From IMG/VR virus record IMGVR_UViG_3300033064_007458, positions 1-37,001 of that record: 37,001 nucleotides of DNA. The stretch is one strand, 5' to 3'. The first letter of the stretch is position 1. Each line of letters opens with the position of its first letter. The stretch is from a virus. Positions 5,031 to 37,001 of the stretch are shown here, piece after piece. The position numbers and the translations under genes are program-made. Below the pieces are notes generated by a model. That model was not told the origin of the DNA. It made no database searches and worked only from the letters and a program-made list of their open reading frames with translations.

Positions 5031-5882
5031 ATGAAATATGAAAAAATTTACTTCAATATAATAAGAAGAGCGAAACAACGCAAAAAGTGTCCAGTGCAAA
5101 TTTGTGAAAAACACCACGTAGTTCCTAAAAGTTTCATAAAAAACAATTTTACTGTTATTTTAACTCTTAGAGAACACTTTTTATGCCATGCACTAATTTA
5201 TAAGTTTTGCTTAAAAAGGTACGGAAAGAGTAGTACTAGAACACAAAAAGCACTTAGGGCTTTTTTCTTCATGTCTAATAGGTTAAACATTAAAAAAAGT
5301 TCAGTGTATGAAACTCTAAGAACAGAGTACTCTGCATGTATAACAGCAAAAAGGAAAAAAGATAGAATTTTCTATCATTGGCAGCATGGAAAATTTATTG
5401 GAACCATAAAAGAGCTAGTGCAAACTTACACAGACTTAAATTTTCCCAGTCTTTACATGGTTTTTAATGGCCATAGAATTCACCACAAGGGATGGACCAT
5501 TAGTTATGAATTATCAAAAAAAGTAGCTTTTTCTGAGCATAAAAATAAAAAAATATATGAGTTCATACATGAAGATTTCGGCATATACAGAGGTAGTATA
5601 TCCAACATGAAACTAAAATACAAAGAACAAAATCTAAGAGAAAATTATTTATATGCAGTCTCTAAAGGAAGTAGAAATCACCATAGAGGATGGAAAAGAA
5701 TTGACTACGTTAATCGGCCACTTAATAGGATTTTATGGAAACATGGTTCTTACGGGGAAGTTTCTGCAACAACAACCGAACTTTGGAGAAAATATCCAGA
5801 ATTGAGTTTAAATAGAGCACATTTATCTAGTGTTAAGAGTAAGAAACTAAAGTCCCATAAAGGATGGGAGTTATCCCCATGA
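5031..5882 (+). CDS. Freestanding HNH homing endonuclease with three C-terminal DNA-binding repeats
   Basis: 283 residues. The N-terminal HNH-type core shows EKHHVVPKSF (H28, H29), an Asn at 38-39, then LTLREHFLCH (H49, H53). This is the layout seen in phage-borne free-standing HNH nucleases. Three repeats follow at about 114-157, 175-223 and 234-281. Each has a W/F-x-H/E start, a G-S/T-x(n) middle and an ending of HHKGW, HHRGW or SHKGW, resembling NUMOD/IENR-type DNA-binding modules. Base composition is clearly more AT-rich than in both neighbours, which points to recent acquisition. Its stop codon overlaps the terL start in an ATGA, so it sits precisely between genes without breaking either. 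No intron or intein is visible. It would make a break in a related phage lacking the element and spread by repair. Confidence 0.85.
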   Translation: MKYEKIYFNIIRRAKQRKKCPVQICEKHHVVPKSFIKNNFTVILTLREHFLCHALIYKFCLKRYGKSSTRTQKALRAFFFMSNRLNIKKSSVYETLRTEYSACITAKRKKDRIFYHWQHGKFIGTIKELVQTYTDLNFPSLYMVFNGHRIHHKGWTISYELSKKVAFSEHKNKKIYEFIHEDFGIYRGSISNMKLKYKEQNLRENYLYAVSKGSRNHHRGWKRIDYVNRPLNRILWKHGSYGEVSATTTELWRKYPELSLNRAHLSSVKSKKLKSHKGWELSP

Positions 5883-7492: not shown

Positions 7493-7504
7493 ACTTTGTT
7501 TATA

Positions 7505-7513
7505 TGGTATAAT
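7505..7513 (+). promoter_or_regulatory. Extended -10 promoter upstream of thioredoxin/sigma genes
   Basis: The nine bases match the extended -10 consensus TGnTATAAT exactly. They lie just after the terL stop and 31 bases before the thioredoxin-like ATG. No -35 match is seen 17 bases upstream, which extended -10 promoters can tolerate. It could give separate expression of the thioredoxin, sigma and DUF3223 genes. Confidence 0.45.
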
Positions 7514-7543
7514 ACCAGTGTATTACTTGCAAGGATACAAATT

Positions 7544-7861
7544 ATGACAGAGAAGGAATTTAAACACAGGGTGGTATTTTTTCACCAGCCTGGGTGTGTT
7601 GCTTGCAACACAATGAAACCGGTATGGGCCGAAGCAGCTAACGAACTTACAGAAGACTATCCGCACTATGCCATAGGTTTCGGTGAGTGGGACGTGACTT
7701 CGGACGATTGGGTGTTTTGCGATCAGATTGAATGCGACGGGACTCCTAACTTCGCTGTATTTGACGAAGACTGCGAGCTTTTAGGGCTGAACATTGACGG
7801 GATTTTAGCTAAGACTCAACTCAAAGACTTTATCATCAGCTCGATTGAAAAATCTAATTAA
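7544..7861 (+). CDS. Thioredoxin-like protein (CxxC)
   Basis: I place the start at ATG 7544, with AAGGA eight bases upstream; an upstream in-frame ATG at 7496 would add 16 residues with no support. The resulting 105-residue protein fits a single thioredoxin fold. It has the redox motif GCVAC (C18-V-A-C21), a Lys-Pro after the second helix turn (K25-P26) and a GTPNF motif with the likely cis-Pro P68. CVAC differs from the classic CGPC, so the redox potential or role may be that of a glutaredoxin-like or assembly factor. Phage thioredoxin-like proteins can serve ribonucleotide reductase or virion assembly; nothing here decides between these. It sits between terL and the sigma gene and ends directly before the sigma start. 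Confidence 0.8.
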   Translation: MTEKEFKHRVVFFHQPGCVACNTMKPVWAEAANELTEDYPHYAIGFGEWDVTSDDWVFCDQIECDGTPNFAVFDEDCELLGLNIDGILAKTQLKDFIISSIEKSN

Positions 7862-8614
7862 ATGAACGTTAATCTTATTACAACGCCACGCCGTGGGTCT
7901 AAAAGAGAAAGTGAGCGAGATAAGCAAATTGTCTCGCAGATGTGGAAAGCTAATCAAGTTGCGAGAAAAATCTCAAGTTTTACTGGGTTGCCTTACGAAG
8001 AGCTTAGAGACGCGGCTTTAGAGTACATTGTGCGCATCTATGACTCGTGGGACCAAGGAAAAGGTGCTAATTTTTCAACTTGGGTGAATAGGTGTTTACA
8101 GTTTCACATGCTTAACTATCTCAGAGATAACTCTAGGCTGGTTAAAATTCCTCGTTCCTACTCCGACTTGTATTTGAAGATTCGCAAGTACATCATTGCC
8201 GATCCTAATGTCACCGATGACGAAATAGCAAATAAAACCCAGGTTGCTATTAAGAAAATCAGAGCGGTGCGCCAGGCTTTTGCAATGAGCTTTTCGCAAA
8301 TCACCGAGTACTCAAACGTAACCGAACCTAATTACGAAGCGGAGATCTCGGTCGGGGATCTGATGACATCGCATAAAGACATGTTGCTTAAAGTAACAGA
8401 TCTTGAGCCGGATGACGAAGCGTTTCTTACCGACCACCTTGTAAAAAAGAGAAGTGTATCTACTCTTCTCCGTAAAAATCCACATCTTCGTAACGCAGAA
8501 GACATTAGGAAATATTCCGAACAACTAATTGAGTTTATCTTATGCGACGGACCGTTACCATTAAAGAAACCATTTACAATAAAAGCAACTTCGAAAAAAA
8601 GTGGAGTGAGTTAA
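7862..8614 (+). CDS. Phage RNA polymerase sigma factor (late-type candidate)
   Basis: 250 residues; the ATG follows the thioredoxin stop with no gap. Residues about 28-92 match sigma region 2: a helix with EELRDAALEYIVRIYDSW, then GANFSTWVNRCLQFHMLNYL for the core-binding and -10 recognition helices. Residues 95-142 look like region 3 (IPRSYSDLY, then DPNVTDDEIANKTQV). A degenerate region 4-like segment at 183-227 (FLTDHLVKKRSVSTLLRKNP, then AEDIRKY) is poor compared with host sigma-70. This is the general layout of phage sigma factors of the gp55 type, which direct host polymerase to late promoters. Placement after terL fits late control. The sigma identity is secure; the late role is inferred. 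Confidence 0.88.
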   Translation: MNVNLITTPRRGSKRESERDKQIVSQMWKANQVARKISSFTGLPYEELRDAALEYIVRIYDSWDQGKGANFSTWVNRCLQFHMLNYLRDNSRLVKIPRSYSDLYLKIRKYIIADPNVTDDEIANKTQVAIKKIRAVRQAFAMSFSQITEYSNVTEPNYEAEISVGDLMTSHKDMLLKVTDLEPDDEAFLTDHLVKKRSVSTLLRKNPHLRNAEDIRKYSEQLIEFILCDGPLPLKKPFTIKATSKKSGVS

Positions 8615-14329: not shown

Positions 14330-14902
14330 TTAAACACCAGGAATTAAATCGAGTAGGGCAAAGTCTACTGGAAGATTGAGGAGTTTGGTGTATGGTACGA
14401 GTGAGCGGGTTTTAAGGTAGTTATGCATGTAAGTGTAGTAGGCGTGATGCTCTGCTTCTCTTGCAAGAAGTTGATTCCTAATCCACCACGCGGAGGAATC
14501 CGGGTTGAGTAAGACAATTTCTTCAGTATGGTGGTCTTTGCACAGCTCCCACTCCCTCTCAATGAGAAACAGAGATACAGTGGTTTTTTTTAAAAAATAA
14601 GATTCTGCAGCATTGGCCCACTCCTCACTTAAATCTACTTGCCGCCGAAACTTCTCATAAAAACAAACTTCAGAAAATCCTCTGTCGCAGATAATAAACT
14701 CAGGGTGGGTTTCTAGAGCCTCGTCAAAAGGCTCTATATACTGCTCGATAGGGGAGGAGTGGTGGGGCTTGGGGCCAGAAAAGTGAAGAAGGGTGGCGGT
14801 GAAGTTATTTTGGGTAAGAGAGTATGCAGTGTTTTTGGCTAGAGTAGACTTTCCTACTCGGTCGGCTCCCAGCAAAACAACCGCTTTAGGAGAACAAGGC
14901 AT
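14330..14902 (-). CDS. P-loop nucleotide kinase-like protein
   Basis: 190 residues from ATG 14902. This start fits the strong promoter whose expected transcription start is near 14921; a longer frame from TTG 14956 would have to begin inside the -35 box and is rejected. The Walker A is VVLLGADRVGKST (G12-T20). A FIICDRGFSE motif (D73-R74) follows, the DRx pattern of the thymidylate kinase/deoxynucleoside kinase group. Arg/Glu-rich LIEREWELCK may form the lid. It would phosphorylate nucleosides or nucleotides for phage DNA synthesis, though the substrate cannot be told. It is the first gene of a leftward operon that otherwise encodes tail parts, an odd setting for a metabolic enzyme. Confidence 0.8.
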   Translation of the reverse strand: MPCSPKAVVLLGADRVGKSTLAKNTAYSLTQNNFTATLLHFSGPKPHHSSPIEQYIEPFDEALETHPEFIICDRGFSEVCFYEKFRRQVDLSEEWANAAESYFLKKTTVSLFLIEREWELCKDHHTEEIVLLNPDSSAWWIRNQLLAREAEHHAYYTYMHNYLKTRSLVPYTKLLNLPVDFALLDLIPGV

Positions 14903-14927: not shown

Positions 14928-14956
14928 ATTCTACCACAGAAACTGCTCGGTGTCAA
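14928..14956 (-). promoter_or_regulatory. Near-consensus sigma-70 promoter for the hub operon
   Basis: On the minus strand TTGACA (14956-14951, perfect) is followed by a 17-base spacer and TAGAAT (14933-14928, five of six), with a TG one base before the -10 box. Transcription should begin near 14921, about 18 bases before the kinase ATG at 14902. It should drive the kinase, the small virion protein, the hub and the last gene. The -35 box abuts a GC-only inverted repeat. Confidence 0.8.
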
Positions 14957-14986
14957 CTCCGCGAGCGCGCGAGCGCGCGGGCGGAG
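14957..14986. repeat. 30-bp GC-rich inverted repeat next to the -35 box
   Basis: The 30 bases read CTCCGC-GA-GCGCGC-GA-GCGCGC-GG-GCGGAG, apart from one T and one A in the outer arms. Two nested stems (six outer, six inner pairs) are separated by a GA/GG internal mismatch, with a two-base tip. Much of it is alternating purine-pyrimidine. It begins one base upstream of the leftward TTGACA. It may be a protein-binding site, a cruciform or Z-prone element, or an RNA hairpin blocking rightward read-through. Confidence 0.8.
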
Positions 14987-14990
14987 CAGC

Positions 14991-15024
14991 AGTAACAGTG
15001 AACAGTAACTATTCTACTGTTACT
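14991..15024. repeat. Three copies of an AACAGT/AGTAAC operator-like unit
   Basis: AGTAACAGT (14991-14999), AACAGTAAC (15001-15009) and inverted ACTGTTACT (15016-15024) lie within 34 bases. The first and third form a nine-base perfect inverted repeat, followed by TTT. This may be a set of binding sites in the divergent promoter region, or a weak rightward hairpin. Confidence 0.6.
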
Positions 15025-15036
15025 TTTAACTAACGG

Positions 15037-15065
15037 AATAAATAAATAACTATAGAGTTTAAAGT
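15037..15065 (+). promoter_or_regulatory. Possible late promoter and leader element before the 15099 gene
   Basis: Two overlapping AATAAATA copies (15037-15048) match the T4-type late box NATAAATA. They are followed by AGAGTTTAAAGT (15054-15065), a 12-mer that recurs in the leftward leader at 34962-34951. No sigma-70 -35 box is evident. The AT-rich 8-mer also occurs by chance elsewhere in the window, so this is weak. Confidence 0.3.
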
Positions 15066-15098: not shown

Positions 15099-15440
15099 AT
15101 GCCCTCAACTCCCACGCCTCCTTACCATCGTTGGGGAGTCAGGTTCACAGCTGACTCTACACATGACCTCGCCTACCTAACCACAGCTCATACAAACGAT
15201 CCAGCTTTTGCATATAGAGGGGAAGTTTTTCTCAACGAGGTGCTCGATGAACTGTATTATGTCGATGGAGGTGGGGTTACAAGGAGGTTTGGTGATCGGG
15301 CCTCTGTGCCTTTCTCCAGAATTAGTTTTACTGGAGTGAGGAATTTTGCTGACGATGCAGCCGCGAGCGCAGCCACTCCCCCAGTAGCAGTGGGAGGAAT
15401 ATATCGTACCGGCTCTGCATTAAAAATCAGAGTGGTTTAA
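15099..15440 (+). CDS. Small virion-associated protein
   Basis: 113 residues; the ATG has AGCAGGA a few bases upstream. The N-terminal part has RWGVRFTADSTHDLAYLTTA and LDELYYVDGG stretches of mixed strand. The C-terminus ends VAVGGIYRTGSALKIRVV, a short beta ending that I have seen at the ends of many tail-fibre or tail-associated proteins. It is a likely minor structural protein. It is alone in its unit: an intrinsic terminator follows about 60 bases later. The exact role is unknown. Confidence 0.65.
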   Translation: MPSTPTPPYHRWGVRFTADSTHDLAYLTTAHTNDPAFAYRGEVFLNEVLDELYYVDGGGVTRRFGDRASVPFSRISFTGVRNFADDAAASAATPPVAVGGIYRTGSALKIRVV

Positions 15441-36158: not shown

Positions 36159-36531
36159 GCTTCGTGGAGGCAACTCTCAGTTCCCCGAAGCAAAGGACAT
36201 TGGGGATGTGGTTGTGCTTGCGCTTGGTGATATGTTCTGCTGGGATGGGAGGATTTGGCAGCTCTTAGGGGGGAGGTTTATTCCCGCTGCGATAAGAGAT
36301 GAGTTTTTAGCCTATGTGGCTAGCGGCTGGCCAGATTCAGCTAGTGCACTTTTCGACCTTCCCGAGCTCTTGAGCATAGAAGGGTTTACGAGGTATGCTT
36401 GCTATGACACCACCCCCGCCGATCCGAAGTGGATTGGGAAGCTAATTAGCAGAGTGGCGGAGGTCGCAGATAACTGCGAGAAGAGTAAAAAAGAGGGCCT
36501 TATGACCCTCTCTTCTACCCCAACTGCTTAA
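36145..36531 (+). CDS. Unknown small protein
   Basis: 128 residues from ATG 36145; the frame is open to a TTG at 36127, but the ATG coupled to the previous gene's stop is more likely. It contains DIGDVVVLALGDMFCWDGRI followed by WQLLGGRFIPAAIRDEFLAY, a Trp/Phe-rich mixed fold, then a helical DPKWIGKLISRVAEVADNCE. Two Cys near the end. Its stop overlaps that of the convergent coiled-coil gene by four bases, and its last codons contain that gene's terminator. No family is recognised. Confidence 0.65.
   Translation: MRVTRLRGGNSQFPEAKDIGDVVVLALGDMFCWDGRIWQLLGGRFIPAAIRDEFLAYVASGWPDSASALFDLPELLSIEGFTRYACYDTTPADPKWIGKLISRVAEVADNCEKSKKEGLMTLSSTPTA
36487..36511 (-). terminator. Intrinsic terminator of the leftward coiled-coil gene
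   Basis: On the minus strand AGAGGG (36511-36506) pairs with CCCTCT (36497-36492) across an eight-base loop, followed by five Ts. It begins 17 bases after the stop at 36528 and lies within the coding region of the opposing gene. Confidence 0.7.
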
Positions 36532-36749
36532 ACCACTTCTGTTTCGGAAAGAGGGGGGGTTTCTTCACCGCCTCCTTCTTCTCCTCCTTCTTCCTCATTG
36601 GGGAGTTGAATGGTCATGGCTTCCACAGCGCCCTGGAGCTTGAGCACAAGCGCCTCGCGTTGAGAGAGGGCTTGGCGGACCTGGGCGAGTTCGTTCTGAG
36701 CTTTCTCGAGCTGGGAGATAAAGTTATCTTTGAGTTCTTTGGGGTCCAT
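36528..36749 (-). CDS. Small coiled-coil protein with acidic Gly-rich tail
   Basis: 73 residues from ATG 36749. The first about 48 residues form heptads (FISQLEKAQNELAQVRQALS, LVLKLQGAVEAMTIQL) typical of a short coiled coil. The rest is Glu/Gly/Pro-rich and probably disordered. It has its own promoter candidate and terminator, so it looks like a one-gene unit. Such small coiled coils are frequent in phages, often as accessory or scaffold-like factors; the role here is unknown. Confidence 0.7.
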   Translation of the reverse strand: MDPKELKDNFISQLEKAQNELAQVRQALSQREALVLKLQGAVEAMTIQLPNEEEGGEEGGGEETPPLSETEVV

Positions 36750-36781: not shown

Positions 36782-36811
36782 ATCTTAAACCATAAGTGGT
36801 GGTTTTGTCAA
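36782..36811 (-). promoter_or_regulatory. Candidate sigma-70 promoter for the coiled-coil gene
   Basis: On the minus strand a perfect TTGACA (36811-36806) is followed by an 18-base spacer and TAAGAT (36787-36782, four of six). The predicted start near 36775 gives a leader of about 26 bases to ATG 36749. The -35 box directly follows a ten-G run. Confidence 0.5.
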
Positions 36812-37001
36812 CCCCCCCCCCTGGGGAGGCGATGGCCCAGGTGGTGGTAGTGATAGGTAGTAGCGTTGACTAATCGAGCTAGCTCCGTGCAAACTCCCCG
36901 TGCAATTCCTTCTACGCTGTTTTGCCAGCAATAATCGCGGTAGTCAATGGGGTGAGATCTTCTGTGGTCCAGAAATCTTTAGTAATCATAATTTCAAGAT
37001 G
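36812..37001. other. Right-edge region: ten-C tract and possible gene ends
   Basis: A run of ten C (36812-36821 on the plus strand) is followed by about 180 bases with no confident gene. On the minus strand a frame open from the window edge ends at TAG 36914-36912 and may be the last 29 codons of a gene outside, or a 25-residue peptide from ATG 36989. A second minus frame (36978-36808) of 56 codons contains HPIDYRDYCWQNSV and ELARLV stretches but has no usable start codon. Confidence 0.3.

Follow-up and report, generated by a model that had tools for sequence, protein, structure and literature searches.

Promoters that are phase-variable through homopolymers are known, for instance, from Bordetella and Neisseria. 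Regarding phages, excerpts of one study (PMC2984593) describe the T4-type late promoter as TATAAATA, with NATAAATA in S-PM2, and report that some genes of RB49 and cyanomyoviruses possess an early as well as a late promoter, and in excerpts of another (PMC5780444) host-type promoters throughout are suggested by the authors for cyanophage Ma-LMM01. In a superficial search of the literature, no account of S-TIM5-lineage promoters was found, and nothing on point regarding promoter-terminator overlap, TIM5-like phages or the motif GTTTAAAG, which is introduced below.

Two sites of a viral DNA fragment, located near 14.9 kb and 36.8 kb, are compared here with these systems. Both share the -35 box TTGACA with host sigma-70 (SigA-type) promoters, and the 14.9-kb site features in addition the N17 spacing and a TAGAAT box, whereas the 36.8-kb site departs from this type by a weak -10 box and a G-run touching the -35 box. 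As in the genes of RB49 and cyanomyoviruses with early and late promoters, a host-type element and a late-type box precede a single gene at 36.8 kb; unlike there, the two boxes would occupy one short stretch, and a G-run precedes the -35 box. A long homopolymer in the promoter region is shared with the phase-variable promoters of Bordetella and Neisseria, from which the site differs in that the tract is situated upstream of the -35 box and not in the spacer. The S-TIM5 group as a whole resembles the T4-type late system, since a single box is found about 26-57 nt before many gene starts, a -35 box is lacking and a phage sigma factor is encoded.

The window and its two TTGACA sites

The stretch of DNA that was analysed, hereafter the window, comprises 37,001 bases and constitutes the whole IMG/VR virus record IMGVR_UViG_3300033064_007458. 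Because reading frames continue beyond its left end at least, the window is a genome fragment, namely a 37-kb piece of an S-TIM5-like cyanomyovirus, with a terminase that shares 69% identity with its counterpart in cyanophage S-TIM5 and relatives and a gene order that parallels S-TIM5 in reverse. A near-identical record (L146/G036, hereafter the twin) shares 99.9% identity with the window over 2,900 bases, but on the relevant side its contig extends for about 9 kb from the PhoH gene and stops short of the 36.8-kb site. A sigma factor is encoded in the window (Table 1), and S-TIM5 gp108, near the terminase gene of that phage, is annotated as a sigma factor as well. Between the terminase and sigma factor genes of the window lies a thioredoxin-family gene (7496-7861), while the ORF at 5031-5882, which adjoins the terminase gene, matches an I-HmuI NUMOD-like domain weakly and below the cut-off and possibly encodes a homing endonuclease. 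At the end of the window, a coding-like frame on the minus strand (36912-37001, stopping at 36912) is probably the 3' end of the gene upstream of the phrog_580 gene.

Table 1. Positions of promoter elements, motifs and genes in the window
Feature	Position	Strand	Remark
Phage sigma factor, phrog_351, Sigma70 region 2	7862..8614	+	Candidate reader of GTTTAAAG
Kinase-like gene, S-TIM5 gp113 ortholog	14330..14902	-	Matches to thymidylate kinase (weak) and AAA (below cut-off)
Host-type promoter TTGACA-N17-TAGAAT of the kinase-like gene	14928..14956	-	-35 box at 14956-14951
GC-rich imperfect inverted repeat CTCCGCCCGCGCGCTCGCGCGCTCGCGGAG, directly 5' of the kinase -35 box	14957..14986	-	
GTTTAAAG motif of the divergent gene at 15099	15057..15064	+	
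73-aa gene, phrog_580, S-TIM5 gp125 ortholog	36528..36749	-	Gene served by the 36.8-kb site
GTTTAAG, -10-like or late-motif-like box	36784..36790	-	15 nt after TTGACA
TTGACA, -35-like box	36806..36811	-	From sequence; preceded by G10
G10 run (C10 on the plus strand), directly 5' of the -35 box	36812..36821	-	From sequence

Judging from the sequence, it is credible that both TTGACA boxes sit in promoters. The predicted leaders of about 26 nt (to the ATG at 36749) and 19 nt (to the ATG at 14902) agree with the short leaders of 18-26 bases proposed in the initial annotation. Its claim that each box abuts a GC-only tract holds for the box at 36811-36806 with its ten Gs, but the tract next to the box at 14956-14951 is GC-rich only: the repeat (14986-14957) contains 26 G or C among 30 bases, includes A and T, and ends in GAG.

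The 14.9-kb site is an ordinary host-type promoter with a GC-rich flank of its own that is locally conserved. The promoter differs from TTGACA-N17-TATAAT by a single mismatch, and in relatives the kinase-like gene is accompanied by an ortholog of the divergent gene at 15099. Among 28 distinct kinase intergenic sequences, a GC-rich block (73-87% GC in 30 nt) touches the -35 box in seven, i.e. in the window with its twin, L147, L148, L149, L150 with L151, L159 and L179, of which L149 and L150 differ by few bases; L172 and L174, whose 100% GC refers to a single base, were not counted. All seven feature a promoter within one mismatch, as opposed to none of the 21 others, and the block is absent upstream of the S-TIM5 kinase-like gene. 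A conserved hairpin at this promoter was considered and rejected, as the fold did not go beyond composition in the five relatives tested, GC content alone being conserved, in a subset; the tract of the window itself forms a somewhat more stable fold than shuffled sequence (z -2.1 over the 30 nt, -2.5 and -3.4 when longer stretches are taken, and -1.6 in a separate folding run).

Elsewhere in the same intergenic region, a hairpin formed by AGTAACAGT and ACTGTTACT and followed by TTTT is located at 14991-15028 (plus strand), just 5' of the GTTTAAAG motif of the gene at 15099. Hairpins beyond composition were also detected in this region of L179 and L156, and not in six other relatives folded. 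A short form of the region exists in S-TIM5 (104555-104638), L162-L166 and L168, where CTTTAAAC of the divergent motif doubles as the -35 box, so that the kinase promoter reads TTTAAA-N16-TATAAT and two divergent promoters have one box in common.

A conserved box and a probable late motif

At 36.8 kb, a perfect -35 box is combined with a -10 box that shows two mismatches at best (TAAGAT at N18 or TTTAAG at N16). A search for orthologs of the phrog_580 gene yielded 18 IMG/VR loci as well as five records that belong to four phages, and 17 orthologous upstream regions were tabulated, with L132, L136, L138 and L124 dropped as duplicates or near-duplicates and S-TIM66 left out. About 40 nt before the ATG a GTTTAA-type box is conserved in these regions, namely as GTTTAA in 8 of the 17 and as a close variant in six (GGTTAA in five, GTCTAA in one; all counted by eye). 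Two more distant, T4-like relatives (L144 and L145) have TATAAATA at the equivalent position, and L143, whose locus begins just 125 nt upstream, contains neither type of box. The -35 position is occupied by exact TTGACA in one region (L141), by TTTACA in S-TIM61 and S-TIM5 and by TGTACA in S-TIM54, and in none of the 17 does a G-run touch a -35 TTGACA. Hence, the conserved element of the site is the downstream box.

This box resembles the motif GTTTAAAG, than which it is one A shorter, and lies 41 nt before the ATG; exact GTTTAAAG is absent shortly 5' of the phrog_580 start. S-TIM5 contains 36 copies of GTTTAAAG, compared with an average of 8.5 over the 560 orderings of its letters, and the window ten (among them 14335 on the minus, 15057 on the plus, and 34959 and 35955 on the minus strand), compared with a permutation mean of 1.6; at least four of the ten are situated just before gene starts. 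In S-TIM5, 27 of the 36 copies are positioned 20-100 nt before an annotated start on the same strand, 25 of these at 26-57 nt, while the same placement applies to 316 of 4744 sites when all permutations, GTTTAAAG included, are pooled. No -35 box is associated with the motif: the best match has a mean of 3.22 mismatches versus 3.08 at random, and exact TTGACA occurs at just 4 of 175 late-motif sites, all of them at the gp064-type gene treated below. Since many genes behind it are structural, GTTTAAAG is probably the late promoter motif of the S-TIM5 group, which in this respect, as enrichment and position suggest, would differ from T4 by using GTTTAAAG in place of TATAAATA. The motif would be read by a phage sigma factor, for which the protein encoded at 7862..8614 is a candidate.

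Gs before the -35 box within and beyond the clade

The ten Gs form the longest G/C homopolymer in the window. GC-only tracts of ten bases lie immediately upstream of 0.05% of window positions, and the chance of finding one beside any of the 11 TTGACA boxes of the window amounts to about 0.6%, an estimate made post hoc, after the sighting. In S-TIM5, none of 60 TTGACA boxes is preceded by at least eight G or C within ten bases.

The initial annotation had suggested a promoter architecture common to both sites and, as a check, a search for GC-tract enrichment upstream of such promoters. For this purpose, 12 records of the clade were analysed after removal of near copies, with a promoter defined as exact TTGACA plus a good -10 box, or plus GTTTAA 12-16 nt on, and with TTGACA whose best -10 box has at least three mismatches as control, those with two being left out. 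In these exploratory tests, which were run after the sighting, GG directly precedes TTGACA at 9 of the 29 distinct promoters versus 9 of 305 non-promoter boxes (p 2e-6), and GGG in 5 of 29 versus 0 of 305 (p 3.5e-6; 4/28 versus 0/305 by derivation when the window is omitted). CCC precedes 2 of 29 promoters versus 1 of 305 controls (p 0.02), and four G or C precede 5 of 29 versus 10 of 305 (p 0.006). As CCC is nominally enriched as well, the flank effect is not cleanly restricted to G. Before near-copy removal and with all other TTGACA as control, GGG was counted in 10/41 versus 0/403, and among 52 distinct promoters with one mismatch per box allowed GGG occurs six times, CCC three times, AAA never and TTT once. 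Enrichment is therefore seen, but 20 of the 29 promoters lack even GG, and the five with GGG serve four genes, gp096 being counted twice (S-TIM5 and G036 orthologs). The habit of placing a G-run before the -35 box is thus partly supported for clade promoters. While Gs touching TTGACA do recur in the clade, the tracts at 36.8 and 14.9 kb are not one element: the former is a G-run absent in orthologs, the latter a mixed GC repeat present in a quarter of the kinase intergenic sequences, hence they represent different things.

A search for GGGGTTGACA in the whole records behind 30 group loci returned 12 places in 10 of the 30, compared with five places for the backward control. Four of these belong to the gp064-type gene (S-TIM5 gp064 type, MTTV..), four precede gp096-type genes (G025, G029, S-TIM54, G036), one belongs to a TATAAT promoter in G014 and one, in G029 (L409), lacks a promoter; two in G031 were left uninspected. 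The gp064-type layout of G4-5, TTGACA, N14 and GTTTAAAG is similar to that at 36.8 kb (N15, GTTTAAG). A G-run, TT[GT]ACA, N14 and GTTTAAAG precede the gp064-type gene in G010, G019, G018, G012, G014 and G022, and the S-TIM5 gp064 promoter reads GGG-GTGACA-N17-TATAAT. Four of these cases stem from the G4-TTGACA search, and G014, G022 and S-TIM5, which were added by orthology alone, agree with them. In total, GGG or more directly precedes a TTGACA-like box in 7 of 7 gp064-type orthologs (TTGACA four times, TTTACA twice, GTGACA once), as identified by tblastn over the 12 records and four 2-kb stretches, G010 and G019 being near copies; tblastn gave no match in G013, G016, G020, G036 and the window. 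The G-run at gp064-type promoters varies from three to six among orthologs, and that of gp096 comprises three Gs in S-TIM5, four each in S-TIM54, L407 and L410, and five in the twin G036; nine other gp096 orthologs have no TTGACA at that place.

Outside the clade, no GG excess at promoters was found in unrelated viral contigs (3/33 versus 14/264), in bacterial loci (1/25 versus 16/267) or in contigs picked for G8-TTGACA with the seeds left out (6/59 versus 27/353), the last of which show a weak GGG excess (6/59 versus 9/353, p 0.012). In IMG/VR, G8-TTGACA occurs in at least 119 stretches and the permuted G8-TTAGCA in 18, and among the matches listed good -10 boxes accompany 33 of 52 intergenic G8 sites versus 41 of 128 other intergenic TTGACA of the same loci. 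Nonetheless, G-runs before TTGACA were dropped as a general promoter mark across viruses, because TTGACA itself outnumbers TTAGCA 1.6-fold across 99 further viral loci (547 versus 336), because C8-TTGACA occurs in 81 stretches and has a similar -10 rate (9/20 versus 24/41 intergenic, p 0.41), and because G5-7 runs followed by TTGACA occur once in 117 bacterial loci.

Among the IMG/VR matches listed, CCC and then TTTT follow the box at 8 of 77 distinct G8-TTGACA sites versus 2 of the 610 remaining TTGACA of those loci, and at none of 44 C8-TTGACA sites. The eight viral contigs concerned (L030, L034, L035, L105, L013, L027, L069, L071) display a G-run, TTGACA, a C-run and a T-run, mostly together with a -10 box, an arrangement that by its sequence is a predicted intrinsic terminator with a promoter -35 box in its loop. 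Stems of at least 4 bp enclose the -35 box in 7 of 41 clade promoters versus 36 of 402 controls, which is not significant (p 0.10), and stems of at least 5 bp with 4 GC in 4 of 41 versus 5 of 402. Inverted repeats of 5-7 bp around the -35 box, possibly operators in some clade promoters, were observed at S-TIM5 36526 (L125) and 143538 (L127), at the G020 kinase promoter and at 14945-14966 of the window.

Interpretation of the 36.8-kb site

With a probability of about one half, the 36.8-kb site is a composite early/late promoter of the phrog_580 gene with a G-flanked -35 box. In such a promoter, the GTTTAA-type box, common to relatives, would be read by the late sigma factor of the phage itself or as a weak host -10 box, and the host-type TTGACA would lie 15 nt upstream of it. 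The ten Gs would be an extreme instance of the inclination of this phage group to place Gs immediately 5' of TTGACA, and, in a promoter that is predicted to fire, might affect -35 recognition or melting. In promoters of two relatives, the G-run could also pair with a C-run after the box, similar to a terminator stem for the upstream gene. A doubtful extension holds that G-run and TTGACA form an extended -35 element fused to a GTTTAAA late box, which would create single-site early-late promoters at a small number of genes; a phage-altered RNA polymerase or sigma region 4 would make contact with the G-run.

It is quite conceivable that the ten Gs are neutral intergenic sequence touching TTGACA by chance while the GTTTAA box works alone; their absence from every tabulated phrog_580 ortholog, the presence of three G/C runs of at least seven in the window and none in S-TIM5, and a surrounding fold not beyond composition (z -0.59) point that way, whereas the GGG enrichment of clade promoters other than that of the window and the G-run in all gp064-type orthologs argue for a preference. 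An overlap of terminator and promoter, where the G-run would form the 5' arm of a terminator that serves the upstream gene, the -35 box would sit in its loop, and a C-run followed by a T-run would complete it, is suggested by S-TIM5 gp064 (TAA, GGGG, a -35 variant, CCCC, TTTC), by the G014 ortholog (GGGGGG-TTTACAGAT-CCCCC-TTTG) and by the G8-TTGACA sites with CCC and TTTT listed above. For the window it is improbable, as the -35 box is followed neither by a C-run beyond CCACC nor by the T-run of an intrinsic terminator, and the excess of 4-bp stems in the clade is not significant.

Of similarly small probability is a coding origin, with the ten Gs as the 3' end of an upstream gene (Arg-Gly-Gly-Gly-stop) and the TGA of TTGACA as its stop codon. 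This stop ends 58 nt before the ATG, several relatives have upstream stops at 58, 57, 56 and 53 nt (the whole range being 11 to 151 nt), and L141 reads GGT TGA CA as well. A coding origin is nevertheless not supported: across its 56 codons the frame has a codon score of -9.8 bits, against +4.8 at the 5% low end of in-gene windows, no relatives of it were found in phages (one chance-level match, E 1) or IMG/VR, and it contains no ATG, GTG or TTG start. A phase-variable role, raised in the initial annotation, would imply that slippage in the tract alters expression; ten Gs are long enough for slippage, and the run length at gp064-type promoters does vary among orthologs. Such a switch is most improbable here, since the tract lies outside the -35/-10 spacer, so that slippage would leave the spacing unchanged, and since the tabulated phrog_580 orthologs are devoid of it. 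A scan by exact pattern for a further record containing the adjoining box gave none. Nothing was found in support of the insulator and activator-site roles proposed alongside it. Within the proposed composite early/late promoter, the ten Gs look like a modest, lineage-specific feature and not like a proven switch.

Taken together, the analysis provides a testable late motif, GTTTAAAG, a regularly varying divergent promoter region at the kinase-like gene and a lineage-specific G-flanked -35 box. If the G-flank matters, it would offer these phages an additional way of setting promoter strength while the boxes themselves stay unchanged.
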